Source of the DNA: Hyphomonadaceae bacterium
GTDB taxonomy: Bacteria; Pseudomonadota; Alphaproteobacteria; Caulobacterales; Aquidulcibacteraceae
Reading direction: 5' to 3'
DNA length: 64,000 nucleotides
Assembly: GCA_019753105.1 (NCBI GenBank)
Contig: JAIELJ010000001.1
Span: forward strand, 1-64,000
Within the stretch, counting starts at the first letter, position 1; every line of letters starts with the position of its first letter. A model generated the notes under the pieces. The model made no database searches. It was not told the origin of the DNA and saw only the letters and a list, made by a program, of their open reading frames with translations. The translations under genes were made by a program, and so were the position numbers. Shown in pieces: positions 4,201-52,473 of this stretch.

Positions 4201-6768
<2,568 letters not shown>

Positions 6769-34431: not shown

Positions 34432-35403
34432 ATGGACCACCGCGAGCCAACACAGGCCGAATTGGAGGCCGCGCATTGGCTCGTGGTTTTGGACGAGCCC
34501 CGCGTCAGCCGCCAAGACATCGACGCGTTCCAGGCTTGGCTTGCCGCGGACGAAACGCACAAGCGCGCCTATGACGCGGTCTCCGCGACTGCCGACAAGA
34601 TCGATGCCGTCTTAGCGACAGAACCCGTCGAACACGAGATTGGCCATCGGAGAACAAGGGTCCCAGTTCGGCCGATCGCGATCGCCGCGCTCTCGGCAGC
34701 GGCCGCTCTCGCCTTGTTCGTCATCTCACCGCTCAGCCCGCTTCGGGACGAGCCGGGCGCCGTCTATGCCACGGCGCCGGAACAGGAGCGCCTGGTGCGG
34801 TTAAGCGACGGCACCACGATCGAAATGGCGCCTGGCGCGCGGTTGCGGGCCAGTCTTGAGGGCGATGAACGCCGCGTGCGGTTCGAAGAAGGCGTGGCGC
34901 TTTTCAATGTTGCGCACGACGCCTCGCGGCCCTTCGTCGTGACGACCAGGTTCGGAGACATCCGCGTGCTCGGCACCTCGTTCGTCGTGCGGCTCGGACC
35001 TGATGGCGCCATTACCACAGTGCTCAGCGGACGCGTCGAAGCACGCCGCGAGATGCTGTTCTCACCTGACAACAGTGTGGCGGCGTCAGCCGATCAGGAG
35101 ATCGAGCTTGGCGGGGGCGCTCCCATTGTTTCAGTTCTGGCCCGGGACGCCCTCGATCGCCGGCTGGTGTGGCGCGAGCGTATGGTGGCGCTCGACGGCC
35201 AGTCCTTGCGTGAAGCAGCTGCTGAGGTGACGCGCTTTTCGGGCGTGCGCTTCGCGTTCGGCGACACCGCGACCGCGCAGGTGCGCCTCTCCGGATATGT
35301 GGCTGGAGACGACGTCGAGGCGTTTCTCGGGTTGCTCGAGAACAATGTCGGGGTCAGCGCCGATCGGCGCGCCGACGGCGTGATCGTGCTGCGCTCTGAT
35401 TGA
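34432..35403 (+). CDS. FecR-family transmembrane sigma regulator
   Basis: A 323-residue FecR protein: N-terminal DUF4880 segment (EAAHWLVVLDEPRVSRQDIDAFQAWLA), a single membrane helix (AIAALSAAAALALFVISPL, about residues 83-101), and the periplasmic FecR domain (LSDGTTIEMAPGARLRA, VRFEEGVALFNVAHDASRPFVV, RVLGTSFVVRL) followed by a secretin/STN-like end (SGYVAGDDVEAFLGLLENN). It relays receptor occupancy to the adjacent FecI. Confidence 0.9.
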   Translation: MDHREPTQAELEAAHWLVVLDEPRVSRQDIDAFQAWLAADETHKRAYDAVSATADKIDAVLATEPVEHEIGHRRTRVPVRPIAIAALSAAAALALFVISPLSPLRDEPGAVYATAPEQERLVRLSDGTTIEMAPGARLRASLEGDERRVRFEEGVALFNVAHDASRPFVVTTRFGDIRVLGTSFVVRLGPDGAITTVLSGRVEARREMLFSPDNSVAASADQEIELGGGAPIVSVLARDALDRRLVWRERMVALDGQSLREAAAEVTRFSGVRFAFGDTATAQVRLSGYVAGDDVEAFLGLLENNVGVSADRRADGVIVLRSD

Positions 35404-35499
35404 GCGCGCGCGAAAAACTTCTCCCTCGTTGTCGTTTTTGCCAAGCCCGTTCGTCTCCCCTTCTTGAAGACCGAGCATGCGGTCCAAGGGGAGGTAAGC

Positions 35500-38400
35500 T
35501 TGACCAAAACCGTCAAGCGCGCGGAGCGCGTTTCGCATTGGATTGCCGGCCTGTTGTTGGGCGTGTCGCCATTTGCGTTTGCGCCTGACGCACGCGCTCA
35601 GATCAACGGCGCTTCGCTCGCTGGTGACACCCGGATCGAGTACAACATCCCGGCACAGCCGCTCTCCAGCGCCCTGGCACTATACGCGCAACAATCCGGA
35701 CTGAGCACACTTGTCCCAGCGGACCGCTTTGCTGGCCAATTTGCGCCAGCGGTGCGTGGCCACTTTACGCGCGAAGAAGCGCTGTCTCAGTTGCTTTCCA
35801 ACTCCAACGTCCGGGGCGAGATTACGCCCGCAAATACGCTTTCGCTGGAGCAAGATCAGAGCCCCCAGCCCGGCCGCGCGAACGCTGAGACGCGCGTTCG
35901 CGCCGCAGCGAACGCCAACGCGGAAGCGCCCGACGTTGAGGCGGACGAAGAGATCGTTGTCACCGGCACACGCATCCGAGGCGCCGCGCCCGCCGGTTCG
36001 AATTTGATCGAACTCAGCCGCGAAGATCTGGACGCCACCGGGCGCTTGACGCTTCAGGACGCGTTGCAAACCTTGCCGCAAAATTTTGCTGGCAGCCAAA
36101 ATGAAGGAACGGTGGAGGGCTCGCTCAACGCGCGCAGCAACTTTTCTTACGGCTCGACCATCGATTTGCGCGGCTTAGGCGCCGACGCGACACTGACCCT
36201 CGTCAATGGCCGCCGACTCGCGCCTGCAGGCGTCGGCAATTACGTGGATATCTCAATCATTCCGCTCGCGGCGGTGGAGCGTATCGAAGTTTTAGCCGAC
36301 GGGGCCTCGGCCACCTATGGCTCGGACGCGGTCGGGGGCGTCGTCAACATAATCCTCAATGACAGCTTCGAGGGCGCTGAAACGCGAGGCTATGTCACTG
36401 GCACATCGCAAGGGGGCGCCGAAGGCGTAGGCTTCTCGCAATTGTTCGGCTTCGACTGGAACAGCGGGCGCTTGACCGCCGCTTACGATTATCGTGATCG
36501 CCGCCAACTCGACATCGACGACCGCGATTTCTTGGCAAGCTCCGACTTCCGCCCCGAAGGCTCCAATTTCTCGCGTACGCTCGCCAATCCGGGCAACATT
36601 ATCCGCATCGGTGCGACGCCGGTTTCGCTCGCCATCCCCCAAGGCCAAGACGGCACGTCTTTAACTGCGGCCGACCTCATCCCAGGGGTGCTGAACCTCA
36701 ACGAACTCAATGAGGGCGCCTGGCTGTTGCCTGAGCAGACGAGCCACTCGATCTTTGTAAGTGCGCAACAAGATGTGAGTTCGGTTCTTACGCTCAGCGC
36801 CGATCTCATCGCGACAGATCGTGAGGCATACCTCGAGCGAGAGCAACTCTTCGCCAATATCGTCGTGCCGGAGTCAAACGCCTATCGGCAGCTGAACAAT
36901 TTATTCCTGGGCCAGGGACCGCTTACGATCGCGTACTTCTTCGGCCCCGACTTGGGACCGGTGCGCAATATCAGCCGATCACAAGCCTATTCAATGGCAT
37001 TTAGCGGCGATCTCGCATTGCCCAACGATTGGACATTGTCGGCTTCCGTCACCCACTCTCAAAGCCGCGAGTCCATCGACAATGAAAACTTCTTCGACTC
37101 CGCAAACATTGCCCCGGCCCTCGCCAGCAGCAATCTGAACACCGCTTTCAATCCGTTTGCAGACGGCTCCAACACGAATTCGGCCGTGCTGGCGGGGCTT
37201 ACATTCGACATCGCCACCGAAAACGAAGGCCGGGTCACGAGCTACGGCGCCACCATGGATGGCCCGCTCTGGGCCTTGCCTGGCGGTCCGATCCGCGCCG
37301 CCTTCGGCGTCGAACAACGCCGCGAACGCTTTTCGATTTCGCGTTTCGAAGACCATGCGTCAGGTGTCGCCGATCAATTCATTCAGGACCCTGGCGCACG
37401 CACAGTCGATGCTGTTTTCGCCGAATTATACCTGCCTCTCATTTCGCCCGATAACGGCGTGCCGCTTGTGCATGCCCTCACGCTGTCGGCGTCAGCCCGG
37501 CGTGAGGACGCGAGCGACTATGGCGCATCGACTACGCCCCGCGTCGGCGTCCGCTGGGCCTTATCCGAAGCCTTCGCGCTCCGCGCCTCTTGGGGCCAAT
37601 CCTTCAAGGGGCCGTTGTTCGATCAATTGCTGGGCGGCACAGCGATCTCGTATCTCACGGCGAGCGCCGCACAGGACCCACTCGCAGACAACGGCTCGAC
37701 CGGGGTCTTGGCTATTGCCGGCGCCAATCGCGAATTGCGTCCCGAACAGGCGGAGAGTTGGACCGCAGGCTTCGACGTCGAACTCGGCGCGGGCTTTACG
37801 CTCTCGGCGACGTACTACGACATAGATTTCGCCGACCGCATCACCTCGGCGGGCGGCACGTTTGCGATCCTGCGCAATCCTGCCGGCTTCGAAAGCATCA
37901 TCTACCGCGATCCATCGCCTCAGCTCATAGCCGAATTTCTGGCGCTCGGACCGCCCCCATTCGGCGTGCTGCCCGCTGACGGCGTTGAGGTCATCGTCGA
38001 CCGGCGCCTGGTCAATCTATCGGCCCTACGCGTGCGCGGAATTGATCTCTCTGCGGCCTACGCTTTCGAGACCGACATTGGACAAATCTCGCTGACCTTG
38101 GCCGCCAGCAACATGCTGCAGTATGAGACCACGTTGGCGCCGGGAGCGGCGCCAGTGAGCGCGCTCAACACTTTGAATGGGCCGGTAGACCTTCGCGGCC
38201 GCGCCACTTTGGCCTGGCAGGGCGTACAAACCGGCGCCGCGCTCACTTTCAACTACGTGGACGCTTATCGCGACACGTTGAGCCTACCGGCCCGTGACAT
38301 AGATTCTTTCCAGACCTTTGATTTTCGGCTTACGCACGATTTCGGCGACCGTGAGCGCGGCCTCGTGGTTGCGTTTAATGTGAATAACGTCTTTGACGAA

Positions 38401-38502
38401 GACCCGCCCTTCGCCAATAACCCGACTGGCTTCGCATTCGACGCCGCGAACGCGTCGCCGCTTGGCCGCGTAATCTCGCTCGAATTGCGGCAGCGCTGGT
38501 GA
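35500..38502 (+). CDS. TonB-dependent receptor with STN signalling domain, probable lasso-peptide importer
   Basis: A 1000-residue outer-membrane receptor. TTG 35500 lies five bases after GGGGAGG and gives a clean signal peptide (WIAGLLLGVSPFAFAPDARAQ). An N-terminal STN domain follows (IEYNIPAQPLSSALALYAQQSG), then a TonB box (ADEEIVVTG), the plug (DALQTLPQNF, ADGASATYGSDAVGGVVNI) and a 22-strand barrel ending LELRQRW. The STN domain is the hallmark of receptors that signal through FecR/FecI, both just upstream. Followed immediately by the isopeptidase gene, as in astexin-type clusters. Confidence 0.9.
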   Translation: MTKTVKRAERVSHWIAGLLLGVSPFAFAPDARAQINGASLAGDTRIEYNIPAQPLSSALALYAQQSGLSTLVPADRFAGQFAPAVRGHFTREEALSQLLSNSNVRGEITPANTLSLEQDQSPQPGRANAETRVRAAANANAEAPDVEADEEIVVTGTRIRGAAPAGSNLIELSREDLDATGRLTLQDALQTLPQNFAGSQNEGTVEGSLNARSNFSYGSTIDLRGLGADATLTLVNGRRLAPAGVGNYVDISIIPLAAVERIEVLADGASATYGSDAVGGVVNIILNDSFEGAETRGYVTGTSQGGAEGVGFSQLFGFDWNSGRLTAAYDYRDRRQLDIDDRDFLASSDFRPEGSNFSRTLANPGNIIRIGATPVSLAIPQGQDGTSLTAADLIPGVLNLNELNEGAWLLPEQTSHSIFVSAQQDVSSVLTLSADLIATDREAYLEREQLFANIVVPESNAYRQLNNLFLGQGPLTIAYFFGPDLGPVRNISRSQAYSMAFSGDLALPNDWTLSASVTHSQSRESIDNENFFDSANIAPALASSNLNTAFNPFADGSNTNSAVLAGLTFDIATENEGRVTSYGATMDGPLWALPGGPIRAAFGVEQRRERFSISRFEDHASGVADQFIQDPGARTVDAVFAELYLPLISPDNGVPLVHALTLSASARREDASDYGASTTPRVGVRWALSEAFALRASWGQSFKGPLFDQLLGGTAISYLTASAAQDPLADNGSTGVLAIAGANRELRPEQAESWTAGFDVELGAGFTLSATYYDIDFADRITSAGGTFAILRNPAGFESIIYRDPSPQLIAEFLALGPPPFGVLPADGVEVIVDRRLVNLSALRVRGIDLSAAYAFETDIGQISLTLAASNMLQYETTLAPGAAPVSALNTLNGPVDLRGRATLAWQGVQTGAALTFNYVDAYRDTLSLPARDIDSFQTFDFRLTHDFGDRERGLVVAFNVNNVFDEDPPFANNPTGFAFDAANASPLGRVISLELRQRW

Positions 38503-38510
38503 GCGCGACG

Positions 38511-40406
38511 ATGCGATTTCAATTAGCGATGATCCTCGGCTTCGCGCTTGTCGTGTCGCCGCCAGCGGGGGCGCAGGCAGAGCCGCGTCGTGCCGCGACG
38601 CTGGAGGACATCTACCTGCTTCGCGATATCGGGGGCGATGTCGATCCATTCCTTGAGATATCGCCAGACCAGACTCAAGCCGCCTTCTTCGTGCGCGAAA
38701 TCTTGCCCGAGGCCGACGACTATGCCTATCGCTTGGCGCTGACCGATATCGCAAGCGGACACACCCGCATCATCGCCGATGCAGGCCGGTTTGTGTTCCG
38801 CACCGACGGTGGCTACCGCTCCGGGCTGGGTGTCGATCGCATTGCCCGCTTTTCCCCTGACGGCGCGGCGCTCTACTACACCGCCGAACGCCACGGACAG
38901 TTGAACATTCGCCGTGTCGACTTGAGAACGGGTGATGACGCTCAGGTGACCGACGCCGAGGGCGACATCCGCGGCCTTTGGTTCAGCGGCAATGTTCTGA
39001 TGTTCGAGACCGCCACGCCGCGCGAGCAGGCGCGCGCCCAGTTACTTGAGGACGAACGCCGTGGTTTTCGCGTCGATGAGAACTTTCGAGCAGCGTACGG
39101 GCTTGCCCGTGTCACGGATGAAGCCGCCGGCGCGCGCACTTGGATCTACGATCCCTCGTCCGGATTGACGCGTGCCGCTGACGACAGCGCGCCTTCGGCG
39201 CCTGCCTACATCAGGCCGCTTGATTCCACTTCGACGGTTGCAGAACCCGCGCTTGCTCTCTTCGCGCCGGGCAATGAGCGGTGCATGGACCCCGCATGCG
39301 CAGGCGCGCTCGATGCAGCCTGGCTCATGTCAGGCGATCACGCCGAAGAGGTGCTGTTCCTCCGACGTGAGGGCCATGGGCGCGCGTTGCACGCCCTATA
39401 CATGTGGTCGCCAGCGTCCGGCGCCGTGCGGTTGATGCGGCGTGCGGAAGAGCGTCTCTTTGCCTGTGCGCCTGGGCGCGCCGCGCTCATCTGCTTTCAG
39501 GAAAGCGCGCTGACGCCACGCCGTTTGGTTTCAATCGACCTTGTGAGCGGCGCGCTCACGCCGCTGTTCGATCCTAACCCCGGCTCTCGCACGATTGCAG
39601 CGCCGCGCATAGAACGCCTCGACTTTACCGATGCCGAAGGCAATGAGAGTTACGCACACCTCGTCTATCCGTTGCGCTACCGCCGGGGCCGGTTCTATCC
39701 CGCCGTTGTCGTGCAATATCACTCCCGCGGTTTCTTGCGCGGTGGCGTCGGTAACGAGACACCAATCTTGCCGCTTTCAGCACACGGCTATTTCGTTATC
39801 AGCGTCGAGCGCCCGGAATTCCGCTTGCGCGCAGCGCGCCTGACCGCTGCAGAGGTGCAGCGCGAGACCGAACTCGACGGTTCTGAAAGGCGCGCCAAGC
39901 GCGAGGCGCTTAACGCCTTCATCGCCCGCGCCGTTGACCGTGGCGCCGATCCGGCTCGAATCGGCATTACCGGTTTGTCCGATGGCGCCGAGACCGTCTA
40001 CGCCATGTTGATGGACGAGCCCAACACCTTCGGAGCTGCAGTCGTCGGCTCGCCCCCAACCGATCCCGCAAGCTGGGCGCTCCAGGCGTCGGCCTATCGC
40101 GATCGCAGCCTCGCGCGCATTGGCCTTACTTCGCCGTGGGTCGAAGGATCGCCTTGGACACAATGGTGGCGCGACAACAGCGCTTCATTGAACGCCGAGC
40201 GGCTCAGTACGCCCATTCTCTTCAATTGGGGTGAAAGCGAAGCTGTGCGCGGCTTTCCCCTGCTGGCGCGGTTGCATGAAAACGGCACGCCGTATGAAGC
40301 CTACATCTATCCAGGCGCTTATCACCTCAAATATCGGCCTCAACAGCTATTGGCCGCGCAGCAGCGGACCATGGACTGGTTCGATCGGTGGCTTCAGCCA
40401 GATTGA
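38511..40406 (+). CDS. AtxE2-family lasso peptide isopeptidase
   Basis: A 631-residue secreted prolyl-oligopeptidase-type hydrolase: signal peptide, N-terminal beta-propeller (EISPDQTQAAFFVRE, IARFSPDGAALYYTAE) and C-terminal alpha/beta-hydrolase. Ser490 is in GITGLSDGAET, Glu577 in GESEAVRGF and His605 in GAYHLKY. This Ser-Glu-His set and spacing match the catalytic triad of AtxE2 (S527, E610, H638), which cuts the isopeptide ring of lasso peptides. A GTG at 38499 overlapping the receptor stop is an alternative start. Its last 13 bp overlap the end of the convergent cyclase gene. Confidence 0.9.
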   Translation: MRFQLAMILGFALVVSPPAGAQAEPRRAATLEDIYLLRDIGGDVDPFLEISPDQTQAAFFVREILPEADDYAYRLALTDIASGHTRIIADAGRFVFRTDGGYRSGLGVDRIARFSPDGAALYYTAERHGQLNIRRVDLRTGDDAQVTDAEGDIRGLWFSGNVLMFETATPREQARAQLLEDERRGFRVDENFRAAYGLARVTDEAAGARTWIYDPSSGLTRAADDSAPSAPAYIRPLDSTSTVAEPALALFAPGNERCMDPACAGALDAAWLMSGDHAEEVLFLRREGHGRALHALYMWSPASGAVRLMRRAEERLFACAPGRAALICFQESALTPRRLVSIDLVSGALTPLFDPNPGSRTIAAPRIERLDFTDAEGNESYAHLVYPLRYRRGRFYPAVVVQYHSRGFLRGGVGNETPILPLSAHGYFVISVERPEFRLRAARLTAAEVQRETELDGSERRAKREALNAFIARAVDRGADPARIGITGLSDGAETVYAMLMDEPNTFGAAVVGSPPTDPASWALQASAYRDRSLARIGLTSPWVEGSPWTQWWRDNSASLNAERLSTPILFNWGESEAVRGFPLLARLHENGTPYEAYIYPGAYHLKYRPQQLLAAQQRTMDWFDRWLQPD

Positions 40407-42238
40407 AGGTCGCTTCCCATCTCTGGCGAAGGCCCAGCCCGAAAGGCCGGCGCGCACGCCGCTTTTGTTTTGAGGAAGCGCCGGAGCCAGAGTTCGGCAA
40501 TGAAGGCGGTCATGATCTGCGCCTTGGTTTTTGCATCGACCACCACATCCCGCCGAAGCGCGGTCTCCAGCGGTTCGCGCGCCAATAGCCCGAGCTTCAC
40601 GAGTTCACCGTCGCACAGCATCTCACGGATGAACGGCAATTGCCGTTCCAGCACCGCGCGGTGATAGCGGGTGGTGTCACCCTTATGGCGCCGCTCCAGA
40701 ATAACGCGCGGAATTAAGTCGCCAAACGCGGCCCGCGCCAGCGCTCGCTCACGCCCTCCGCGGGTCATGTCATAAGGCGCGATTGACAAACAGCACTCGA
40801 CCACTGGCTGACATGCGAGCAACGGCGCGGCGACAAAACCGCTCAACGATGAGCGCTGGTGATAAAAATGGAGATCGACCACATGCGCCATGCGCAGCGC
40901 TCTGGCTGGAGTGGCCTTATTCATCGCGCTCGCCCATGGGTGGGCCGCCCATTCAGCCCTTGCTGGCAGCGATCCTTCGGACGCAAGCACGTTGTCGAAG
41001 ACGCTATTGTAGGGTGAAAACTGCCGCCACGGGGCGACTGTGCCCGCCATGGCTGCGAACACATCCCAGACCGGAGCGCGAATGAGCTGGGCGGTTTCGA
41101 GCGCGATCCGCCAAAGATCAGCGGGCGGGCAGCCGTCCATCATGGCATCCGCCGCGATCGATGCCGTGCGGCTGCGATGCAGCACTTGATCGCCGCCCTG
41201 CCCCGAAGCGACGACACGCGCCCCTGACGCGTCAATCGCTTCGCCAAGAAGGGAATCGGAGAAGCTGAACTGACTATAGGAAGGCCGCGCGCTGAGTCGG
41301 GCTTGTAGAATTGCTGGATAGGACACCGCGTCAGGATGCGCGGCAAGTTCCCTGAGCGAGAAGTTCAACGTGTCGGTCGCGATGCGCGCGAATATACGCT
41401 CGTCGCCCTCTGGAGTGTCTGCAGGGAATTCGTTGAAGCAAATCACGTCCCGGGCGCCGGCGTGGTGAAGCGCGCACGCGACTAACGTTGAATCAAACCC
41501 GCCGGAGAGCCGAAGGGCGATCGGCCCTCGCTGCTGGCCGTAGCCGACCCACGCCGACGCCGCGCGGCCAACGGCGCGGCGAAGCGCTGCTTGACCACTG
41601 ACGAAGTCAAGCTTCGGCTCTCGTATGGACGGTTGCCACAGCGAAGCTTCACGCCGGCCAGTCCGCATCAATGTTAGGGCGACGCCAGGCAGCACCTCAC
41701 GCACCTTCGCCAAGCCCGTGCGCGTCGTTACCAGGCGAGGTTGACAGAGGAAGGCGCTAAGCATCGTCTGGTCGACGTCAAGTTCGGGATCCACGACGAG
41801 CAGATCTTCCGCATCGTTCGCAAAGACGGTGAACTCACCGGCGTCGAGCACGTAGAGCGCGCCGGCGCCGCAGGGATCGCGCGAGAGGTGCAGCTCATCG
41901 CGGCCATGGTCATGGAGGACAGCGCAATAGCCGCCCCAATAATTCTGAACCAAAAGTGCGCCGCCGCTTTCGGCCAGCTTCCAGGCCTCAGTAGACGTTA
42001 TTGAGGCTACCGGCTCGTCGCGTTCCTCGCCGGACAAAAATAGAGGACCAAGCACGACGCCGAGGTCGTCTGGCAGGATTCGCGAATCTGCGTCGGCCGC
42101 GGCAAGCGCAATAAGAACGCCGCGACGCTCGCTCACTTTGGAAAAACTGGGGCCAAGTCTTTCCAAACCCACGCGTGCTTGACGCTCGCCGTTTCGATCG
42201 GTCGGGCGCCACCGGAAACCGACCATACGAGCGGTCAT
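40394..42238 (-). CDS. Lasso peptide cyclase (asparagine-synthetase-like protein C)
   Basis: A 614-residue AsnB-like enzyme without the N-terminal catalytic Cys of a true glutaminase. The ATP-pyrophosphatase loop SGGFDSTL (near residue 243) is present, followed by VICFNEFPADTPEGDE and GARVVASGQGGDQVLH. In lasso biosynthesis protein C adenylates the ring Asp/Glu side chain and joins it to the N-terminal amine. It overlaps protein B by 4 bp and lies downstream of two precursor genes, which fixes its role. Confidence 0.92.
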   Translation of the reverse strand: MTARMVGFRWRPTDRNGERQARVGLERLGPSFSKVSERRGVLIALAAADADSRILPDDLGVVLGPLFLSGEERDEPVASITSTEAWKLAESGGALLVQNYWGGYCAVLHDHGRDELHLSRDPCGAGALYVLDAGEFTVFANDAEDLLVVDPELDVDQTMLSAFLCQPRLVTTRTGLAKVREVLPGVALTLMRTGRREASLWQPSIREPKLDFVSGQAALRRAVGRAASAWVGYGQQRGPIALRLSGGFDSTLVACALHHAGARDVICFNEFPADTPEGDERIFARIATDTLNFSLRELAAHPDAVSYPAILQARLSARPSYSQFSFSDSLLGEAIDASGARVVASGQGGDQVLHRSRTASIAADAMMDGCPPADLWRIALETAQLIRAPVWDVFAAMAGTVAPWRQFSPYNSVFDNVLASEGSLPARAEWAAHPWASAMNKATPARALRMAHVVDLHFYHQRSSLSGFVAAPLLACQPVVECCLSIAPYDMTRGGRERALARAAFGDLIPRVILERRHKGDTTRYHRAVLERQLPFIREMLCDGELVKLGLLAREPLETALRRDVVVDAKTKAQIMTAFIAELWLRRFLKTKAACAPAFRAGPSPEMGSDLQSG

Positions 42239-42864
42239 AGCCGGATGATCTCTTGCATAGAGGCGCAGTCTTCGCCGCCGTCATCGACAATGGCGCCATC
42301 AAGCTCCACCCAACTATGGGCAAGAAAGGGCCGTGCCCGTACGCCAATCACAAGCGTCGCATGCGTGCCGCGCGCCAGGAGAAATCGAATGAGACAAAGC
42401 GCGTCGAATAAGCAGACGTAACGCTTTGGCAGCCACGGCCGCATTTCATTGAATTGGAGGATGGCTTTGCGGCCTGCGTCCACGTCCTGGCGGGACGCCC
42501 GCTTCCATGACCTGATAAATTGAGCCGCACGCCACATGTCCCCTCGCCGCACTGTTGTGGACGCCCACTGCGCAGCCCACGCAAACTGCATGATCGTCGG
42601 CGCATTAATGCGTCCGGAATGACCAATCAGCTCTTGTGCAGGATGCGCATCCTTTGAAGTGGTTAGCACCCCTCGCGCCGCCAGCTTCTGAAGCGCTCCG
42701 CTTTCTACGGCCGTCTCGTCATGACGCGCGTTCGCAATACCATCGATGGCCGCCGATTGCGCCGCGCTGACCGCGAAGTACCGATTTGCCTTCAGGTCCA
42801 GAAAAATGAGCCAATCGCCATCGATGCAGGCATGGACGTGAGGTGCGAGAACATACCTTTGCAT
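42235..42864 (-). CDS. Lasso peptide leader peptidase (fused RRE and transglutaminase-like protein B)
   Basis: A 209-residue McjB-type protein combining both halves. The N-terminal part (DGDWLIFLDLKANRYFAVS...) is the PqqD-like leader-recognition element. The C-terminal part is the transglutaminase-like protease with Cys150 in RYVCLFDALC, His in LAHSWVELDG and Asp in AIVDDGG. It cuts the leader after the Thr-x pair of the precursor. It lies 58 bp after the second precursor gene and is coupled to the cyclase. Confidence 0.92.
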   Translation of the reverse strand: MQRYVLAPHVHACIDGDWLIFLDLKANRYFAVSAAQSAAIDGIANARHDETAVESGALQKLAARGVLTTSKDAHPAQELIGHSGRINAPTIMQFAWAAQWASTTVRRGDMWRAAQFIRSWKRASRQDVDAGRKAILQFNEMRPWLPKRYVCLFDALCLIRFLLARGTHATLVIGVRARPFLAHSWVELDGAIVDDGGEDCASMQEIIRL

Positions 42865-42922: not shown

Positions 42923-43048
42923 TCAGTCGCGATGATCCATCTGCCCCGTCGATTCCTCGAACGGGACTTTTGGAATGCCCAGCGTCACTTCGCTGACGGC
43001 GCCGAGATCGATGACGTCGGAGTGGACGTCTTGCACTGCTTCAGCCAT
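42923..43048 (-). CDS. Lasso peptide precursor A2
   Basis: A 41-residue peptide behind GGGAGAG. The leader is 23 residues and ends DLGAVSEVTL; Thr at position -2 is the conserved mark for lasso leader cleavage. The core would be GIPKVPFEESTGQMDHRD (18 residues). Gly1 can close a ring on Glu8 or Glu9. It shares leader end and core pattern with the second precursor 28 bp upstream. Lasso protein B and C genes follow directly. It is too short for standard ORF length cut-offs. Confidence 0.88.
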   Translation of the reverse strand: MAEAVQDVHSDVIDLGAVSEVTLGIPKVPFEESTGQMDHRD

Positions 43049-43076
43049 TGCGGGCTCTCCCGTGTTGAGCGCGAAC

Positions 43077-43196
43077 TCAATCGCGATAATCGGGCAGGCC
43101 CGTCGACTCTTCGGCGAAACGCTGCACGATGCCGCGGGTCACTTCGCTGGCCGCGCCCAGATCGGTGAGTTCGTCTTGTTCGAGGTCTTCACGCAT
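43077..43196 (-). CDS. Lasso peptide precursor A1
   Basis: A 39-residue peptide: leader MREDLEQDELTDLGAASEVTR and predicted core GIVQRFAEESTGLPDYRD. ATG 43196 is chosen because GGAGG lies just upstream; an ATG four codons earlier lacks a ribosome site. Thr -2 and Gly1 fit lasso rules, with Glu8 or Glu9 as ring acceptor. Compared with A2 the leader end (DLGA-SEVT), G-I at 1-2, EESTG at 8-12, D15 and R17-D18 are identical, while the ring and loop differ. Confidence 0.9.
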   Translation of the reverse strand: MREDLEQDELTDLGAASEVTRGIVQRFAEESTGLPDYRD

Positions 43197-43214: not shown

Positions 43215-43276
43215 GGATCGTTCATTCGATCCGGTGAGAGCGTGCGACACTCCAAGCGAATAAGAGAGTTTATAAG
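43215..43276 (-). promoter_or_regulatory. Promoter and leader of the lasso biosynthesis genes
   Basis: On the minus strand CTTATAAACT (43267-43276) gives a TATAAA -10, 71 bp before the chosen ATG of precursor A1. The same ten bases occur 71 bp before luxR (46388-46397). The transcript start is followed by the inverted repeat GGATCG-TTCATT-CGATCC (43215-43232), a possible small hairpin or operator just before the ribosome site. Confidence 0.5.
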
Positions 43277-43300: not shown

Positions 43301-43921
43301 CTAGGCGCCGTTCGCGGAAAGACCTAGCAGGGCGGCGCAGTCCCGAATGCGTTTGGCGTTCATACAACGCCGCATGTGATACTTTCGAAGTGCGTTTCTG
43401 ATCGGAGCGATGTTGCCGCTCAAAATCGCCTTACTGATGGGCGCGAGGTCCTGCTCGACGTTTGGCCAGATTTCGGCTTCAGCGACCCGCGCCATGTGTA
43501 GCCGATCATCAGCATTCCGGGTTGCGTGTAAGAGTTCGGCATGCGCGGCAGTTGCTAACCCTGCCAATAGGTCTGCGGCCTTGTCAGGGTAACTCGCTGC
43601 GGCATTCACCATCGGTTGGGCCGCCGCAGCGAAATTCGCAAGCGCCAGCTCGGCGAGTTCGCCCCGCCATCGATAAAGATCGCGCAGACCGCTCTCGCTC
43701 CACATGGCGACAGCAAAGCCGTGCGACGGACGGAAGCTCACGAGCCGTTCTGAAGTCAACCGCAAGAGAGCCTCGCGCACCGGCGTTGTCGATACGCCGA
43801 GGTCGGACGCGATCGCGTTAGCGTCCAGTCGCTGACGCAGCCTGAAGCGGCCGGCTAAGACCCTTGTCTTTATTTCCTGATACGCGCGTTCAGGTATGGG
43901 TAAGTCAGGCGTCCTCGCCAT
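43301..43921 (-). CDS. GntR-family (FCD) transcriptional regulator
   Basis: A 206-residue GntR regulator: winged helix PERAYQEIKTRVLAGRFRLRQRL, AIASDLGVSTTPVREALLRLTSERLVSFRPSHGF, then an FCD-type helical domain (RDLYRWRGELAELALANF, AHAELLHATRNADDRLHMA). It overlaps the dioxygenase gene by 17 bp and lies directly upstream of the lasso precursors on the same strand, so it is a candidate regulator of them. The effector is unknown, and such a gene is not standard in described proteobacterial lasso clusters. Confidence 0.85.
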   Translation of the reverse strand: MARTPDLPIPERAYQEIKTRVLAGRFRLRQRLDANAIASDLGVSTTPVREALLRLTSERLVSFRPSHGFAVAMWSESGLRDLYRWRGELAELALANFAAAAQPMVNAAASYPDKAADLLAGLATAAHAELLHATRNADDRLHMARVAEAEIWPNVEQDLAPISKAILSGNIAPIRNALRKYHMRRCMNAKRIRDCAALLGLSANGA

Positions 43922-44804
43922 AGTGAGCCTTGAGCTGGCGCGCGATATCGGGCGTCAACGCGTCCACGTGCGGACAAAGCGTATGAGGGTTTGTCGCCAG
44001 CGCTTGGATCGGATCCTGCCCCTCCCAGCCGCCAAGATTGGGCCGGTGCATCTGATAGCCGATGAGCCGCTGCAGCGGCGTTGGAAATGACCGCGCGACG
44101 GCGGGTGGGTAAGCCAGGAATTGGTTTTCGTACTGCTTCAGCCAACCCAAACAATAGGAGACGATGATGCCGTCACGCGGCGCGTTTGACCGGTTCTCGC
44201 CGGCGCCGTGCGTCAGCGCGCCGAGGAAGACCAGCGCATCCCCGGGCTGCATCTCCGCGGGGATCGACCGCGCTGGATCAATGCTGCGGTCGAGCACGTC
44301 CGTGTGACTGCCTGGCCAAAGGCGCGTCGCGCCATTCTCTTTGGTGAAAGCAGTCAACGGCCACATCACATTGATGAGCCAGGGGCGGAGCTTCGGTTCG
44401 TGGGGCCACATCTCTTCATCGCGGTGCGGCGCCTGGGCTCGCTCTTGTGGGTGCACGCGAATGGCTTGCGTCAAATTGAGCTGGATGCAATCGCACGACG
44501 GCTGCAGGGCCGCGCGCGTGATCGCGAGCACGTCGGGATGAAGAACAAGGTCTTGTGTTGAAGGGGCCTTGTTGAGGAGACCTCCGACGCGCGTTGTCTT
44601 CCATCCGTAAAAATCGCCAACGCACTTCGGCGTGGCGGCCAAATGCGGCGCGACCTCGGCGCAAATCAAACGCGATTTCAAACTACTGATCGCCTCTGGC
44701 AAGATGACGTAGCCGTCGCGCATCAAGTCCTCAAATGCGTTCGGGAAACGAGCCTCTGAGTGAACCGCCGGTTGAATAGACATGCGCGGGGTGGCGACTT
44801 GCAT
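43905..44804 (-). CDS. Phytanoyl-CoA dioxygenase (PhyH)-family Fe(II)/2-oxoglutarate enzyme
   Basis: A 299-residue PhyH-family protein. The facial triad appears as HRDEEMW (H and D) and the distal His in GALTHGAGENRS; an Arg for 2-oxoglutarate follows in the same strand. FEDLMRDGYVILPEAIS is the usual N-terminus. ATG follows AAGGAG. It lies between luxI and gntR on one strand, leading into the lasso genes. It could hydroxylate the lasso precursor or an unrelated small molecule; the substrate is open. Confidence 0.85.
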   Translation of the reverse strand: MQVATPRMSIQPAVHSEARFPNAFEDLMRDGYVILPEAISSLKSRLICAEVAPHLAATPKCVGDFYGWKTTRVGGLLNKAPSTQDLVLHPDVLAITRAALQPSCDCIQLNLTQAIRVHPQERAQAPHRDEEMWPHEPKLRPWLINVMWPLTAFTKENGATRLWPGSHTDVLDRSIDPARSIPAEMQPGDALVFLGALTHGAGENRSNAPRDGIIVSYCLGWLKQYENQFLAYPPAVARSFPTPLQRLIGYQMHRPNLGGWEGQDPIQALATNPHTLCPHVDALTPDIARQLKAHYGEDA

Positions 44805-44842: not shown

Positions 44843-45469
44843 TCAGGCGGCACGCGCCAGTCCGGCATCAGCGAAGCGCGTGACAGGACCGGTTAGCCGC
44901 GCCCGCTGGCGTACGGCCGCAAGGCCATCGCTGGTGACGTCGGCCAGCATGGCGACGAGACGCTCTCGCCCCATCCTCTGCTTGGGCCCCAAAGCACAGA
45001 CGTGCCAGCCCGCTTGAGCTGCGAGCGGCGCGAGCGCGGCGCCGGCAACGAAACTCACCTTCTCAATCCCGAAGAGGATCGAGGTCTCCAGAATGCCCGC
45101 GATCATTCGCGCCAACAATTCACGACGCGGCGCGCCTTTCGCAATGGTGGGGGCGGGGCAGAATCGGGATGCTTCCCAAACGCGCGCCGATCGCGGCGGT
45201 CCGTCGTCGCAGAGATTGGCGAACACTTCGCTCATGAGATGTGGCGAGAGCGTTGGCAGTAGCCGCGCCGATTGCTGCACGTCGCCGTGTGCGTCGACAT
45301 CGATTAAATACATCGCCTCTTCGCTGTCGAACTCGTCGATCTCAAGGCCCATGCTTTCACTCAGCCGCCAATGCATGCGGTCGATGAAGACCTGCTTGCG
45401 TTGGCGATGCATCTCCATCAGCGCGTGATGAAAGAGGCGGCGATTGTCGCACGTGATGATCTGGATCAT
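44843..45469 (-). CDS. luxI: LuxI-family acyl-homoserine lactone synthase
   Basis: A 208-residue autoinducer synthase. Conserved residues are visible: R-x-x-VF-x-x-x-x-W (RQRKQVFIDRMHW, near residues 22-34), EIDEFDSEEAMYLI, SARLLPT, and EASRFCPAP (Glu and Arg of the active site). It makes acyl-HSL signals from SAM and acyl-ACP. luxR lies 113 bp upstream on the same strand, with an 18-bp palindrome in between. The dioxygenase gene follows 38 bp later. Confidence 0.92.
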   Translation of the reverse strand: MIQIITCDNRRLFHHALMEMHRQRKQVFIDRMHWRLSESMGLEIDEFDSEEAMYLIDVDAHGDVQQSARLLPTLSPHLMSEVFANLCDDGPPRSARVWEASRFCPAPTIAKGAPRRELLARMIAGILETSILFGIEKVSFVAGAALAPLAAQAGWHVCALGPKQRMGRERLVAMLADVTSDGLAAVRQRARLTGPVTRFADAGLARAA

Positions 45470-45529
45470 GAACCTAGTGTCCTCCACACCGAACTCAGTG
45501 AGATTGAGTGCAGACGCGTGCGCTCTGCT

Positions 45530-45547
45530 ATGGGCCGATCGGCCCAT
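45530..45547. promoter_or_regulatory. 18-bp palindrome in front of luxI, candidate lux box
   Basis: ATGGGCCGATCGGCCCAT is a perfect 18-bp palindrome, 60 bp upstream of the luxI ATG. Size and place fit a LuxR-type binding site (typically 18-20 bp dyads near -42). The sequence differs from the classical lux box. Confidence 0.55.
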
Positions 45548-45582
45548 TGACGCGCTTTGCACCAGAAGGAGGTGTGGAGAAG

Positions 45583-46317
45583 TCAGTCCGCCAGATCGGA
45601 CAAGGTCAGCGTGCCGTCGAGATAAGCGAACATGATCGCTTGGATGCGGGAGCTGACCCCATAGCGCGCCCGCGCATGCTCAATTGTATGTTTGGCCGTT
45701 GCGGTCTTGATGCCAAGAATGTCTGCGATCAACGGATCGCTCTTGCCGCGGGCCGCAAGCGCCAAACACTCCTTTTGGCGCTTAGTCAACACGACCGGCT
45801 TTCGCGCCTCACCCGTCGCGCGCAGCCGCGCCTCTTCGTGGGCGTGAAACGCCATCAATTGTAGGTCTGGCACGATCAGAGGATCGATGCCGTCAGGACC
45901 AGGCACAAGCGAACACGACGCCGGCAGCGCCCCGGGCGAATGAATGGGAATAGTCAGTCCCTTCCTCAAGCCGCATTCAGCGGCTTCGTTCAAAATGCGG
46001 CGCTGGTCGCGCGCCAGATCGTATTGGACCACGAACTCTTCCCACCAAAACGGCAGCAGTGCGTTGTGCGCGCCGAAAAAGATTGGATCGCGGTTGGCGT
46101 AATTCTTATCGGAAAACCAGACCAGCCAAGGGTGGGGATAGTTAACGATGGCGACGGCGCCCGTCGGGGGCTTCAGCGGATCGACATGCGAGGCGCAGGC
46201 AACATATCTGATCCCGCAAGCCTCCATCTCCGCGAAAAGAAAACGCGCGATATCCTCTGCCGAAGCCGCCGCCCGGCACTTTTGCACAAAGTCCAACGTG
46301 GCCTCACGCCGGCCCAT
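45583..46317 (-). CDS. luxR: LuxR-family quorum-sensing regulator
   Basis: A 244-residue regulator: N-terminal autoinducer-binding domain with the W/Y/DP pattern (HPWLVWFSDKNYANRDPIFFGA) and C-terminal GerE helix-turn-helix (LTKRQKECLALAARGKSDPLIADILGIKTATAKHTIEHARARYG). ATG 46317 is favoured over an upstream ATG at 46377 because homology begins there. It should bind the signal made by the adjacent LuxI and regulate the palindrome between them. Confidence 0.9.
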   Translation of the reverse strand: MGRREATLDFVQKCRAAASAEDIARFLFAEMEACGIRYVACASHVDPLKPPTGAVAIVNYPHPWLVWFSDKNYANRDPIFFGAHNALLPFWWEEFVVQYDLARDQRRILNEAAECGLRKGLTIPIHSPGALPASCSLVPGPDGIDPLIVPDLQLMAFHAHEEARLRATGEARKPVVLTKRQKECLALAARGKSDPLIADILGIKTATAKHTIEHARARYGVSSRIQAIMFAYLDGTLTLSDLAD

Positions 46318-46387
46318 CGATACACCTACTCCGCTTTCTGCGCGCTCAGGTTGAACCCTAAGCGCGCCGTTTTTCAAGTGAATTGCA

Positions 46388-47099: not shown

Positions 47100-47214
47100 C
47101 CGCGCCGGGCCACTTCTTGTCGCACGCCGCCCTGCTCCGTGCGGTCAAGGGACGCTGCGCTCTTCGCCCTTGACCGCGCATGCCGGCGTGCAGGGCGAGC
47201 ATCGCCCGGCGCGG
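47100..47214. repeat. Nested inverted repeats in the leader of the parB-like gene
   Basis: Outer arms CCGCGCCGGGC (47100-47110) and GCCCGGCGCGG (47204-47214) enclose inner arms GCGGTCAAGGG (47141-47151) and CCCTTGACCGC (47167-47177). All arms are perfect. CCCTGC and GCAGGG form a third tier between them. A similar design sits in front of the OB-fold gene at 50254-50335. Could be a structured RNA leader, an operator or a transfer/partition site. Confidence 0.7.
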
Positions 47215-47245
47215 CTCCTCGCGTGCGGGCGATGGAGAAAATGCA

Positions 47246-49096
47246 ATGACCGACATCACCATGATCGCTTTGTCGAAGCTCGTTCCTGGACAGCGCAATG
47301 TCCGTAAGACCAAGCCTGCGATGAGCATTGATGAGCTTGCGGCGTCCATCGCGGCGCATGGCCTCTTGCAGAATCTGGTCGTCTCGGAAGCTGACAGGGG
47401 ACGCTATTCCGTGGAAGCCGGCGGCCGGCGCCTGAAGGCGCTTCGAAAACTCGCCAAGGCGAAGACCATTCCCGGCAACGAGCCGATCCCCTGCCGCGTC
47501 GTGCCACTTGACGATGCGACAGAAGCCTCGCTGGCCGAGAACGTCCAACGAGAGCCGATGCATCCGGCCGATGAGATCGAGGCATTTGCTCAGCTTGCTG
47601 AAGCTGGTCACGGTCCGGAAGCGATCGCCGGCCGCTTTGGCGTCAACGGCACGCATGTCGCGCGTCGGCTGCGCCTCGCGCGCGTGTCGCCGAGGCTGAT
47701 CGAGGCGCTGAAGAAAGACGAGATCGACCTCGACCAATTGGGCGCGCTCGCCTTCACCGACGATCATGCGCTGCAGGACAAAGCCTTCTTCGATACGCCG
47801 GAGTGGCAACGGACGCCCGAGCAACTCAAAGCACGTGTGACCCAAGCGCACGTCGCCGAGACCGATAAGCTCGCGCGCCTTGTCGGTGTCGACGCCTATG
47901 TCGAAGCCGGCGGCGCGGTCGCGTCCGATCTCTTCGCGGACGAAGACGAGACGCGGTTCCTTGCCGATCGTGAGCTTCTGGTTCGGCTGGCCGAGGCCAA
48001 GCTCGAACCGATCGTCACTGAAGTGCAGGCTGAAGGCTGGGCGTTTGTCCAGATTTCGATCGACGGCGTGGCCTGGAGCCAATTTCCGGAGCGGGTGCGT
48101 GAACGGCGGCGTGAGCTCACGGCCGAAGAAGCGGCTCAGCAAGAACAGCTTTACGCCAAGCTGGACGAGACCGAAGACGAGGCCGAGATCGAAAAGATCG
48201 AAGCGGCGATCGATGCGCTTGCGCCGGCGCAATGGGACGAAGACGAAGTCGCCCTCGCCGGCGCGATCGTGACATTGAACCACTCCGGCGAGGTCAAAAT
48301 CGAACGCGGCCTGGTGCGCGTCGAAGACGTGAAGGTGCTGAGGGCGCTACGCCGAAAGGGCACGACGTCAGACCACAGCGGCGCTGACGCGGACGACGCG
48401 CACGCCGAGGTCGCAGCAGCGCCGAAGCCGGCCGTTCCTGCCAAGCTGCTGGACGAATTGCTCGCGCACAAGACGTTGGGCCTTCGGGTTGCGATCATCG
48501 ATAGCCCAGCGCTCGCACTTCGCCTCGTGGCGTTCAGCCTGGCGGCAAGCTTCATGGGCGATGCATCCGCATCGTGCCTAACGATCTCTGTCGATCACGT
48601 TGACGTGGAGCGCTCCATTACGCGCGCGGAGAGTAGAGCGGCCAGTGAGTTTACCGAGATTGGTTCGGTGTGGCGCTCGCGTTTGCCGGTCAATCCAGAA
48701 GAGCTTTGGGCTTACATCTCTTCGATGGACGAGCCGATGCTGCTCGAACTCATCGCGGTTACGATCGCATCCGGCATCGATCTCAGGCGTGTTGGCCCGC
48801 TATCGGGTATGGAAGCACGTCAAGCACTCGGTCAGACGCTCTGCAACCTCGCTGGACTCGACATGACCAAATATTGGAAGGCGTCGGTCGAGAGCTACTT
48901 CGAACACGTCAGGAAAGACGCGGTCGTCGCGGCGCTGATGGAAGTCAATCCGAAGTTGGAGCGTGCAGCGCTTGAGAAAGCGCCGAAGAAAGAAGTGCTA
49001 ACGCGCGCCAAGCGCACGTTCAAACAAAGCGCGTGGCTGCCATCGCCTCTACGCACGACAACCGAGGCAACGCCGCTAGCCGTCGCGGCCGAATAG
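47246..49096 (+). CDS. ParB/Spo0J-family partition-like protein
   Basis: A 616-residue protein with an N-terminal ParB nuclease-like/CTP-binding domain (ALSKLVPGQRNVRKT, HGLLQNLVVSEAD, VEAGGRRLKALRKL, ASLAENVQREPMHPADEIEAF) and a helix-turn-helix (IAGRFGVNGTHVARRLRLARV). A long acidic linker and a C-terminal domain of unknown type follow. The length is about twice that of chromosomal ParB and typical of ParB-like proteins on plasmids and integrative elements. ATG 47246 follows GGAGAA. It may act in maintenance or regulation of the element. Confidence 0.85.
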   Translation: MTDITMIALSKLVPGQRNVRKTKPAMSIDELAASIAAHGLLQNLVVSEADRGRYSVEAGGRRLKALRKLAKAKTIPGNEPIPCRVVPLDDATEASLAENVQREPMHPADEIEAFAQLAEAGHGPEAIAGRFGVNGTHVARRLRLARVSPRLIEALKKDEIDLDQLGALAFTDDHALQDKAFFDTPEWQRTPEQLKARVTQAHVAETDKLARLVGVDAYVEAGGAVASDLFADEDETRFLADRELLVRLAEAKLEPIVTEVQAEGWAFVQISIDGVAWSQFPERVRERRRELTAEEAAQQEQLYAKLDETEDEAEIEKIEAAIDALAPAQWDEDEVALAGAIVTLNHSGEVKIERGLVRVEDVKVLRALRRKGTTSDHSGADADDAHAEVAAAPKPAVPAKLLDELLAHKTLGLRVAIIDSPALALRLVAFSLAASFMGDASASCLTISVDHVDVERSITRAESRAASEFTEIGSVWRSRLPVNPEELWAYISSMDEPMLLELIAVTIASGIDLRRVGPLSGMEARQALGQTLCNLAGLDMTKYWKASVESYFEHVRKDAVVAALMEVNPKLERAALEKAPKKEVLTRAKRTFKQSAWLPSPLRTTTEATPLAVAAE

Positions 49097-50822: not shown

Positions 50823-50844
50823 CCCACGCGCTGACGCGCGTGGG
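50823..50844. promoter_or_regulatory. Hairpin in the ardC leader
   Basis: CCCACGCGC (50823-50831) and GCGCGTGGG (50836-50844) form a perfect 9-bp stem with a TGAC loop, 22 bp before the ardC start. It may act on translation or as an operator. Confidence 0.45.
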
Positions 50845-50866
50845 CGCATTCATTCGGAGCGAACCG

Positions 50867-51844
50867 ATGAAACGCTCGGCTCAATTGAAAGCGCAACCGA
50901 AGCGCACAGCATTTGACGCGCTGGCGCACGTCACAGCAGAAATCTCCTACATGCTCGAACGCGGCGTGATGCCGTGGCGCGCGCCTTGGGATCACGCCAA
51001 GGCGTTGGCGTTGACGCCTGGCCTGCCCTTACGATCGACGGGCGCCCCCTATCGCGGCGCCAATGTGATGCTGTTATGGGCGGCGCAGATTGCGCATGGT
51101 TATTCCAAGCGCACCTGGCTCACGTTTCGCCAGGCGCTCGAACTGGGCGGACATGTGCGCAAGGGCGAAAAGGCGTGCCCGGTCATCTTTTATGGCCAAG
51201 CCAAACCGAAGCAGAGGGACGCCGGCGACGCTTCCGCTGACGACAATGGCGATGCTACGCGCAGCTATCGTTTTTTGAAGCTTTTTTATGTGTTCAATGT
51301 CAATCAGATCGATGCACTGCCCGATGGCTTCGGCGTGGAAACCGCACCCGTGGCTGCGGAGCCTGGCGCCATCGAACGATGGACCGCGCGTGCCGGCGTA
51401 CAGGTCCGCATCGGTGGCTCGATGGCTTGCTACGCGCCGGTGACCGACTTCGTGCATATGCCGGCGCACGAAGCGTTCTTGTCTGAAGAGCATTGGGCCG
51501 CGACCTTGTTGCACGAGAGCGTGCATTTCACCGGTCATAAGAGTCGGCTTGATCGCCTCGACGGTTATGCCACCGACCGAAAGTCGCGGGCGCGCGAAGA
51601 ACTGTGCGCCGAATTTGGCTCAGCTCTTCTTGGCGCGATGGCGGGCCTGGCGCCTTTCCATCTCGAGGACCACGCGAGCTACATCGCCAGTTGGTTGGAG
51701 CTGTTGCGCGACGAGCCGCGGGCGTTTCTGGCGGCAGGCGCCAAGGCGCAAGCCGCGGTGGATTGGCTCATCGCGCAGGCGGGGCCATTGCCGGTCAGTT
51801 GTCGTGAGGATGCGACGAGTGACGTGCCAGCGCTGCCGGGGTGA
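50867..51844 (+). CDS. ArdC-like antirestriction protein
   Basis: A 325-residue protein with the ArdC layout: N-terminal ssDNA-binding DUF1738 domain (VTAEISYMLERGVMPWRAPW, GAPYRGANVMLLW, WLTFRQALELGGHVRKGEKACPVIFY) and C-terminal zincin metallopeptidase-like domain (WAATLLHESVHFTGHKSRLDR, with HESVHFTGH as the metal site, and REELCAEFGSALL). ArdC proteins of conjugative plasmids shield incoming single-stranded DNA from restriction. ATG follows GGAGC. Confidence 0.9.
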   Translation: MKRSAQLKAQPKRTAFDALAHVTAEISYMLERGVMPWRAPWDHAKALALTPGLPLRSTGAPYRGANVMLLWAAQIAHGYSKRTWLTFRQALELGGHVRKGEKACPVIFYGQAKPKQRDAGDASADDNGDATRSYRFLKLFYVFNVNQIDALPDGFGVETAPVAAEPGAIERWTARAGVQVRIGGSMACYAPVTDFVHMPAHEAFLSEEHWAATLLHESVHFTGHKSRLDRLDGYATDRKSRAREELCAEFGSALLGAMAGLAPFHLEDHASYIASWLELLRDEPRAFLAAGAKAQAAVDWLIAQAGPLPVSCREDATSDVPALPG

Positions 51845-51966: not shown

Positions 51967-52473
51967 TTGGAGTTTGCGGTGCGGGCAAACCTCGATGTCC
52001 AGACATGGCTCTTTCTCGCCGCAGGTTTAGTGGCAATCGTGATTGTCAGCATCGACATCGTGCCCGACGTCATCATCTACAATCCGAGCCCTTCGATCCG
52101 GCGCGGCTTTTATGCCCGTGACAGCGGGGCGCCTGTGCGCGGCGCAAGCGTGACTGTGCGCGCAGTCGATGTCGCGGCGCGTTACGCGCGGTTGCGCAAC
52201 TTCACCGATCTCAATTGATCGTTTCATCAAGCGCGTTGCCGCCATGGAAGGCGACACCGTTTGTGCAGACGCCGATGTTGTGATGGTCAACGGCGAACGG
52301 CGTGTTCGCCGCGCTGTCCAGGATTCAGCGGGGTCACGCTGCCGACTTGGACGGGCTGCCGCACATTGCGCGACGAAGTGTTCTTGCTGGGTGATACGCC
52401 TGACAGCTTCGACGGACGCTATTGGGGACCAACGTCGGTGGAACTAATCGAGGGCGCGTGGCGCGCGATCTAG
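51967..52473 (+). pseudogene. Broken second copy of the TraF-like S26 peptidase
   Basis: Three reading frames together spell a protein parallel to the intact gene at 46575. Frame one ends NFTDLN at a stop near 52217 after IYNPSPSIRRGFYA. Frame two carries DRFIKRVAAMEGDTVC. Frame three carries TLPTWTGCR and FLLGDTPDSFDGRYWGP. At least two frameshifts are needed, so this is decayed. The catalytic Ser and Lys regions are still readable. The end abuts the CBASS phospholipase gene. Confidence 0.8.

Follow-up and report, generated by a model that had tools for sequence, protein, structure and literature searches.

Predicted paired lasso peptides in an apparently exchangeable cassette beside a luxR-luxI-phyH module of a Hyphomonadaceae bacterium

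To our knowledge, lasso peptides of the isopeptidase type, which include the astexins, caulosegnins, sphingopyxins and benenodin, have no settled function. In FecA-FecR-FecI surface signalling a TonB receptor with an N-terminal part, FecR and an ECF sigma factor are found side by side, and in the Gram-positive agr and comQXP systems the signal maker and the sensing domain vary jointly within conserved regulatory flanks. The isopeptidase-type lasso clusters have an almost constant layout of GntR, precursor(s), B, C, isopeptidase, TonB receptor and anti-sigma/sigma genes, and antimicrobial activity of their products is described as generally absent, astexin-1 excepted, in the available part of PMC9266682. 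In sphingomonads luxR, luxI and phyH occur in the same order near mobile or transfer genes (available parts of PMC3704786 and PMC4288048). For capistruin of Burkholderia thailandensis, lactone levels have been suggested to affect expression via the regulator ScmR (PMC6963729, in part).

The window analysed here is a stretch of 64,000 nucleotides from a Hyphomonadaceae bacterium in which a minus-strand series, LuxR-LuxI-PhyH-GntR-A1-A2-B-C, converges with a plus-strand series, ECF sigma-FecR-TonB receptor-isopeptidase (Table 1). LuxI, PhyH, GntR, A1, A2, B and C lie on the same strand with intergenic gaps of at most 104 bases, and LuxR, LuxI and PhyH are adjacent. With isopeptidase-type lasso clusters the locus shares GntR, precursors, B, C, isopeptidase, TonB receptor and anti-sigma/sigma genes, but it adds LuxR-LuxI-PhyH upstream, an apparent cassette-wise exchange and breaks within the TonB and GntR genes. 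The receptor/FecR/sigma grouping resembles that of FecA-FecR-FecI, except that its neighbours are lasso genes and that the ligand-facing part of the receptor is exchanged apart from the N-terminal part. As in agr and comQXP, there seems to be an exchangeable peptide-receptor specificity within conserved flanks; unlike them, the locus has a predicted lasso peptide, an outer-membrane receptor and a second, lactone system, and its signalling role is a proposed one. The sphingomonad modules have the same three genes in the same order with mobile or transfer genes near, whereas the window continues into GntR and lasso genes, of which the available parts of PMC3704786 and PMC4288048 make no mention. 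Capistruin resembles our proposal in being a lasso peptide with a suggested lactone effect on expression, but that effect is indirect and repressive, the cluster is of the ABC-transporter type and no adjacent LuxR-LuxI is described in the available part of PMC6963729.

The main text of a survey of luxR-linked clusters does not contain the word "lasso" (PMC5872303), the available parts of PMC11520301 and PMC8776678 describe no LuxI-lasso linkage, and we found no description of such linkage in the open-licence literature, judged by titles and abstract openings among the matches listed. What appears to be new here is the quorum-linked and apparently cassette-exchanged lasso locus; the isopeptidase-cluster layout and the luxR-luxI-phyH layout are already in print.

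Table 1 Features of the lasso locus and its surroundings, in window coordinates
Feature	Position	Strand	Match or remark
ECF sigma factor	33860-34420	+	Sigma70_r2 + r4_2
FecR anti-sigma/transducer	34432-35403	+	PF04773; shell
TonB receptor, N-terminal part	35464-36009	+	weak STN match; remains with the shell in exchanges
TonB receptor, plug and barrel	36010-38502	+	PF07715, PF00593; moves with the cassette
AtxE2-family lasso isopeptidase	38499-40406	+	NF033523
C, asparagine-synthetase-like macrolactam synthetase	40394-42238	-	PF00733 above cut-off
B, leader protease (lasso B2)	42235-42864	-	PF13471 and NF033537 above cut-off
A2, predicted lasso precursor	42923-43048	-	41 codons; leader MAEAVQDVHSDVIDLGAVSEVTL, core GIPKVPFEESTGQMDHRD
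A1, predicted lasso precursor	43077-43196	-	39 codons; leader MREDLEQDELTDLGAASEVTR, core GIVQRFAEESTGLPDYRD
Inverted repeat GGATCG-N6-CGATCC upstream of A1	43215-43232	-	
A1 promoter element TTATAAACTCTCTTAT	43260-43275	-	candidate GntR operator; common to both cassettes of the window's shell
GntR regulator	43301-43921	-	PF00392
PhyH, phytanoyl-CoA-dioxygenase-like	43905-44804	-	PF05721
LuxI, predicted acyl-homoserine-lactone synthase	44843-45562	-	PF00765
LuxR, predicted acyl-homoserine-lactone receptor/regulator	45583-46377	-	PF03472, PF00196
ParB-like protein	47180-49096	+	PF02195; shell; usable in 12 of 28 compared loci
ArdC-type anti-restriction protein	50840-51844	+	PF08401, PF18818; mobile-element marker
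Relaxase-like protein	55930-57141	+	PF03432, 23.2 bits, slightly under the cut-off of 24.6
Large serine recombinase	57656-59245	+	PF00239, PF07508

A preliminary description of this DNA had read two micro-genes between the GntR and B genes as lasso precursors. Both are present with the lengths given there, and the threonine at position -2 of each leader, the 18-residue cores and the monoisotopic masses after loss of one water (recomputed as 2033.981 Da for A1 and 2023.942 Da for A2, with [M+H]+ at 2034.988 and 2024.949) were all reproduced. Its statement that core positions 13-16 vary stands for positions 13, 14 and 16, and position 15 is Asp in both cores. The ring acid, previously left as Glu8 or Glu9, can be narrowed: the cassette clade that holds the window and its closest relatives has seven distinct 18-residue cores, all with Glu at position 9 and three with Glu at position 8, so Glu9 is favoured and ring closure is most likely Gly1-Glu9. 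The precursors have Thr at -2, Gly1 and an Asp/Glu within positions 7-9. These leaders, together with the B2 protease, the asparagine-synthetase-like C and the AtxE2-family isopeptidase, support the assignment as lasso precursors, and A1 and A2 appear to be ordinary ones of the isopeptidase type. Both score under the cut-off of 33 bits for the benenodin family model NF033522 (A1 29.0, A2 27.3 bits), and neither core is known to us to match a described one.

A1 and A2 recur in the same order and with identical cores in three more records (G001, G005 and a contig labelled uncultured Hyphomicrobium sp.), which argues that they are not chance reading frames. Over the four sequences the A1 core has four codons with synonymous differences only and none with an amino-acid difference; the A2 core has no nucleotide differences and hence is uninformative on selection, and the leaders have amino-acid differences at two codons (A1) and six codons (A2). 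A clear ribosome site, GGAGGAAATT-ATG, lies ahead of A1, and ribosome-site-like sequence precedes both genes. We also searched related loci with a regular expression (leader motif, Thr at -2, Gly/Ala/Ser/Cys at position 1, Asp/Glu at 7-9), which odd precursors can escape, and found at least two precursors in 28 of 34 loci and a single one in the other six, of which G025 lies near a contig end. Note that this set of 34 includes near-identical orthologues, four loci from other genera and one Sphingomonas plasmid.

The processing enzymes look complete. B scores 60.8 bits against NF033537 (cut-off 33), and its Cys151 and His183 are invariant in all 28 loci of our comparison (the window, L005 and 26 loci from same-genus genomes). 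C has an SGGFDS motif at residue 245; lasso-specific C models fall short of their cut-offs (96.9 vs 300 and 32.8 vs 525 bits). The isopeptidase scores 541.5 bits against NF033523 (cut-off 400) and matches the AtxE2 structure (PDB 5txc, E 6.5e-74), and Ser494, Glu581 and His609 are each kept in 26 of 26 aligned sequences. With GntR, TonB receptor, sigma and anti-sigma genes as neighbours, these enzymes make up an isopeptidase-type lasso cluster. The STN match of the window's receptor scores 19.3 bits, under the Pfam cut-off of 28.4, and that of a chimeric receptor in genome G004 (see below) 36.2 bits.

Mantel tests on pairwise protein identities (199 permutations, 9 to 27 loci per protein pair) separated the locus into two co-varying blocks. 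B, C, the isopeptidase and the TonB plug and barrel, here called the cassette, were mutually correlated at r 0.78-0.87; ParB, LuxR, LuxI, PhyH, both GntR halves and FecR, here called the shell, were mutually correlated at r 0.34-0.80. Between the blocks r ranged from -0.12 to 0.25, with B-ParB (0.41) as the single exception. That pair passed the permutation test, as did the small correlations of LuxI with B, S9 and plug/barrel (0.14-0.23) and of GntR_N with S9 (0.15). The TonB N-terminal part tracked ParB (0.64) and FecR (0.52) rather than its own barrel (0.19).

The blocks appear to have parted company repeatedly. Taking pairs with a shell identity (LuxR, LuxI and PhyH) of at least 0.80 and calculating cassette identity from B, C and the isopeptidase, we found six shell lineages with replaced cassettes, their shells 80-96% and their cassettes 25-38% identical; only part of PhyH represents the shell of L033, L053 and L055, and only B the cassette of L005. 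Window-type and GGVD-type loci form 16 such pairs (shell 0.90-0.96, cassette 0.25-0.28) and L034, L036/L038 and L055 five (0.80-0.92 and 0.28-0.38). The others are L037/L042 (0.94 and 0.37), L040/L044 (0.91 and 0.36), L043/L045 (0.94 and 0.34) and L046/L048 (0.89 and 0.28). Reciprocally, the cassettes of L034 and L037 are alike (0.70) within shells 0.55 identical, as are those of L045, L048 and L049 (0.72-0.87) within shells at 0.66-0.68, where GntR accompanies the cassette; GntR differs together with the cassette in two shell lineages, L043/L045 and L046/L048. The trees conflict with support of 1.000 each, the shell clade uniting window-type and GGVD loci and the GGVD cassettes forming a separate clade. 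G+C content does not separate cassette from shell. Recurrent replacement of the cassette between related bacteria is well supported by these comparisons, and we hold the exchange and the module limits described below with high confidence. The alternative (GGVD) cassette of the window's shell is predicted to encode 14-residue cores, GGVDTEIEDREPLF and GGVDHLMEDRDPLM (L019, L020, L027, L028 and L031); 14 residues is very short for lasso peptide cores. In L034 (12081-16800, genome G007) either mutation or misassembly has broken up the isopeptidase and TonB genes into shorter reading frames.

The cuts lie at domain junctions. Window DNA is 82-90% identical to that of four GGVD loci up to 36003-36009 and 82-92% from 43641 onward, and within the exchanged segment the only match of at least 80 bases lies in the plug region, where it spans about 190 bases at 71-73%. 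In all four loci the left cut at 36009 corresponds to TonB residue 182, two residues ahead of the plug match, and the right cut at 43641 to about GntR residue 93, past the DNA-binding match (11-71). GntR residues 1-93 go with the shell, at 85-86% identity in GGVD loci, and the remainder diverges, at 49-50%; FecR is 87-95% identical in the four. In other shells TonB identity drops near residues 175-190 or somewhat earlier and climbs again in the conserved plug, the drop being less sharp in L037/L042, L046/L048 and L036/L055. The break near GntR residue 93 had raised the idea that GntR senses the peptide; no co-variation was seen between the C-terminal half of GntR and the cassette (r -0.12 to 0.04), which lends that idea no support, and it was dropped.

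One island is retained inside the exchanged segment. The promoter element TTATAAACTCTCTTAT lies upstream of A1 without mismatch in 8 of 8 readable loci of the window's shell (the ninth, G018:C506, is unreadable) and has one match in the window, with 0.02 expected. Calculated without a permutation test, promoter similarity correlates with the DNA-binding half of GntR at 0.70, with PhyH and the GntR C half at 0.60 and with FecR at 0.58, and lower with LuxI (0.45), LuxR (0.43), the TonB N-terminal part (0.35) and B or C (0.01). L045, L048 and L049 have GntR and the promoter element in common but not LuxR, so the element is probably the GntR operator, an assignment that is not exclusive because the element also tracks PhyH and FecR. 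The inverted repeat nearer to A1 (Table 1) was not seen upstream of A1 in three GGVD loci inspected. Inspection for inverted repeats and a promoter scan (one promoter-like site found, 1.0 expected) gave no convincing lux box.

LuxI adjoins the lasso genes in 22 of the 28 loci. Five of the others are cut by contig ends (L033, L050, L053, L055 and L056), and the sixth, L051, has a cassette without LuxR, LuxI, PhyH or GntR, none of which occurs in the stretch farther upstream either. Two of the cut contigs, L033 and L053 of genome G005, carry different cassettes and start at one identical PhyH position, as if the assembler had broken at a repeated LuxR-LuxI-PhyH block. Beyond the genus, the order LuxR-LuxI-PhyH-GntR-B-C / isopeptidase-TonB was found in four loci from two further genera of this family, all having full-length B matches, and a Sphingomonas paeninsulae plasmid has the same LuxR-LuxI-PhyH-GntR-lasso order plus FecR and sigma genes. 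This plasmid came from a look-up that gave 28 records with a B-like protein, five of which were examined. No annotated LuxI lies near the lasso clusters in the stretches shown of the Novosphingobium P6W, Asticcacaulis DW145 and Caulobacter rhizosphaerae plasmids, and a Blastomonas plasmid record ends on the LuxI side of its cluster. A search for close plasmid relatives gave no near-identical match. In a class-wide survey the B profile matched 16 of 385 genomes, counting that of the window; outside that genome E fell below 1e-30 at only three places in two genomes (G073 and G206), neither of which had a LuxI match. The family taken for follow-up after this survey held only five genomes. Weak B matches in the window's own family were those of G003, which had no lasso cluster at the fetched locus, and G037 (E 7.6e-5).

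LuxI-PhyH pairs were also seen in 12 stretches where no lasso genes were found (L100-L104 and L107-L113), with a LuxR match in ten; in L102 and L103 the contig stops just past PhyH, so lasso genes beyond it cannot be excluded. In L105 (8432-11349) LuxR-LuxI-PhyH-GntR lie by relaxase-like and ArdC genes with no lasso genes in the next 8 kb, apparently an empty shell.

Derivatives without producer genes occur in two genomes, G004 and G014, with the receptor, FecR and sigma frames open. G004 has three isopeptidases and two B genes. Next to its GGVD cassette it carries another set of ECF sigma, FecR (28% identical to the window's), TonB receptor and a full-length isopeptidase of 635 residues, in which C is reduced to its last 120 residues, after which the DNA jumps to the ParB side. 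The receptor of this set (1019 residues) is chimeric: it is 25-50% identical to the window's until residue 164 and 95-100% over residues 165-364, the stretch shown. In G014 the reading frames of sigma (172 aa), of FecR (322 aa) and of a receptor of the GGVD type (1009 aa, 96%) are open, and the 19.5-kb stretch gave no B, C, GntR, PhyH, LuxI or LuxR, nor did the genome give a match to B, LuxI or PhyH. Its isopeptidase match ends at residue 401 with loss of the catalytic part; given this truncation, the derivative may be decaying.

The nearby ParB, ArdC, relaxase-like and large serine recombinase genes suggest that the locus belongs to a mobile element. The relaxase-like protein scores 197 bits against NF041267, under the cut-off of 850, and the recombinase is 97% identical in a partly deleted relative (L122). 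On the LuxR side, shell DNA is 92% (G016), 90% (G004) and 89% (G027) identical to the window's, with the rpoB region at 87%, 84% and 83%; on the FecR side the values are 88%, 90% and 82%. The higher identity of shell DNA than of the rpoB region would fit a horizontal spread of the element; the FecR side of G027 (82% vs 83%) fits least. Elsewhere the window has a probable CBASS-type defence set on the minus strand (52470-55196; oligonucleotide cyclase, E2-like protein and patatin-type phospholipase) and heavy-metal genes (4201-6768, 14018-16998 and 23191-29110; P-type ATPase, multicopper oxidase, CopB and an RND efflux set with a CusF-like domain).

The reading we favour, and consider reasonably probable, is that the paired lasso peptides form the swappable, specificity-determining part of a peptide-sensing circuit tied to quorum sensing. 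A1 and A2 would give a pair of 18-residue lasso peptides, the product part of a cassette (A1, A2, B, C, isopeptidase and TonB plug and barrel) placed between fixed LuxR-LuxI-PhyH, the GntR DNA-binding domain and operator, the TonB N-terminal part, FecR and the ECF sigma factor. Acyl-homoserine-lactone quorum sensing and GntR would control expression of the lasso genes, B would cleave off the leader and C would tie the peptides, presumably in threaded form. The released peptide would then act on its cognate TonB receptor, the N-terminal part of which would signal through FecR to the sigma factor, and the isopeptidase would untie the imported peptide; TonB, FecR and sigma could also serve uptake alone. 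Recombination in the flanks would swap entire cassettes and so change the peptide-receptor identity, presumably to some benefit, with the circuit unchanged. More tentatively, it is possible that the peptides are exchangeable identity signals: a lactone quorum would turn on the peptide pair, the matched TonB-FecR-sigma set would read it back and the isopeptidase would clear it, a cassette swap would confer a new identity, and receiver-only derivatives would listen silently.

The locus might instead be an ordinary isopeptidase-type cluster, with LuxR-LuxI-PhyH controlling transfer of a mobile element and the exchange being neutral recombination without functional meaning. The best models for LuxI are of the TraI type and TraR is the second-best for LuxR (all below cut-offs), the mobile-element genes named above are close by, LuxR-LuxI-PhyH occurs elsewhere without lasso genes found alongside, and the module is linked to virB genes in sphingomonads (PMC4288048, in part). 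Against this stand the closely spaced, single-strand run from LuxI through C, a linkage kept in most loci despite repeated replacement of the remainder, and cuts at domain junctions; we find it doubtful. That PhyH instead tailors the lasso peptide by hydroxylation is very improbable, and was rejected as the main reading. PhyH does adjoin GntR and the lasso genes in 25 of the 28 loci, counting partial copies at contig ends, but it tracks LuxI and LuxR (r 0.73 and 0.80) with r about 0 for B or C, it sits beside LuxI where lasso genes were not found, and it is present at 4 of 5 Novosphingobium luxI pairs (available part of PMC3704786).

Two further explanations concern the peptides themselves. 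They could be narrow-spectrum inhibitors, with the receptor and isopeptidase giving uptake and immunity and each exchange a new inhibitor type. This would fit the exchange of the product along with its cognate destroyer, the full-length isopeptidase of the producer-less G004 derivative and the narrow activity of astexin-1, but the remaining known lasso peptides of the isopeptidase type are without antimicrobial activity (both points from the available part of PMC9266682), a receptor that imports the poison would be an odd immunity gene, and G014 has retained the receptor with the catalytic part of the isopeptidase gone. We regard allelopathy as rather unlikely. Siderophore-like scavenging, in which the peptides would return a metal or other ligand via the TonB receptor and their diversity would avoid piracy, seems improbable: the predicted cores of the compared loci have no chelating side-chain pattern in common and the isopeptidase would destroy the carrier, even though the TonB-FecR-sigma layout has been likened to siderophore regulation (PMC9266682, in part) and the producer-less derivatives resemble cheaters.

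The two predicted masses and the swapped receptors are available for immediate testing, and the natural receptor chimeras offer a test of what isopeptidase-type lasso peptides do. The lactone genes suggest a role in the timing of peptide production. In these bacteria the peptide, the enzymes that would tie and untie it and the ligand face of the receptor appear to be exchanged jointly, with the presumed signalling parts staying in place, and this points to receptor matching as the selected trait.
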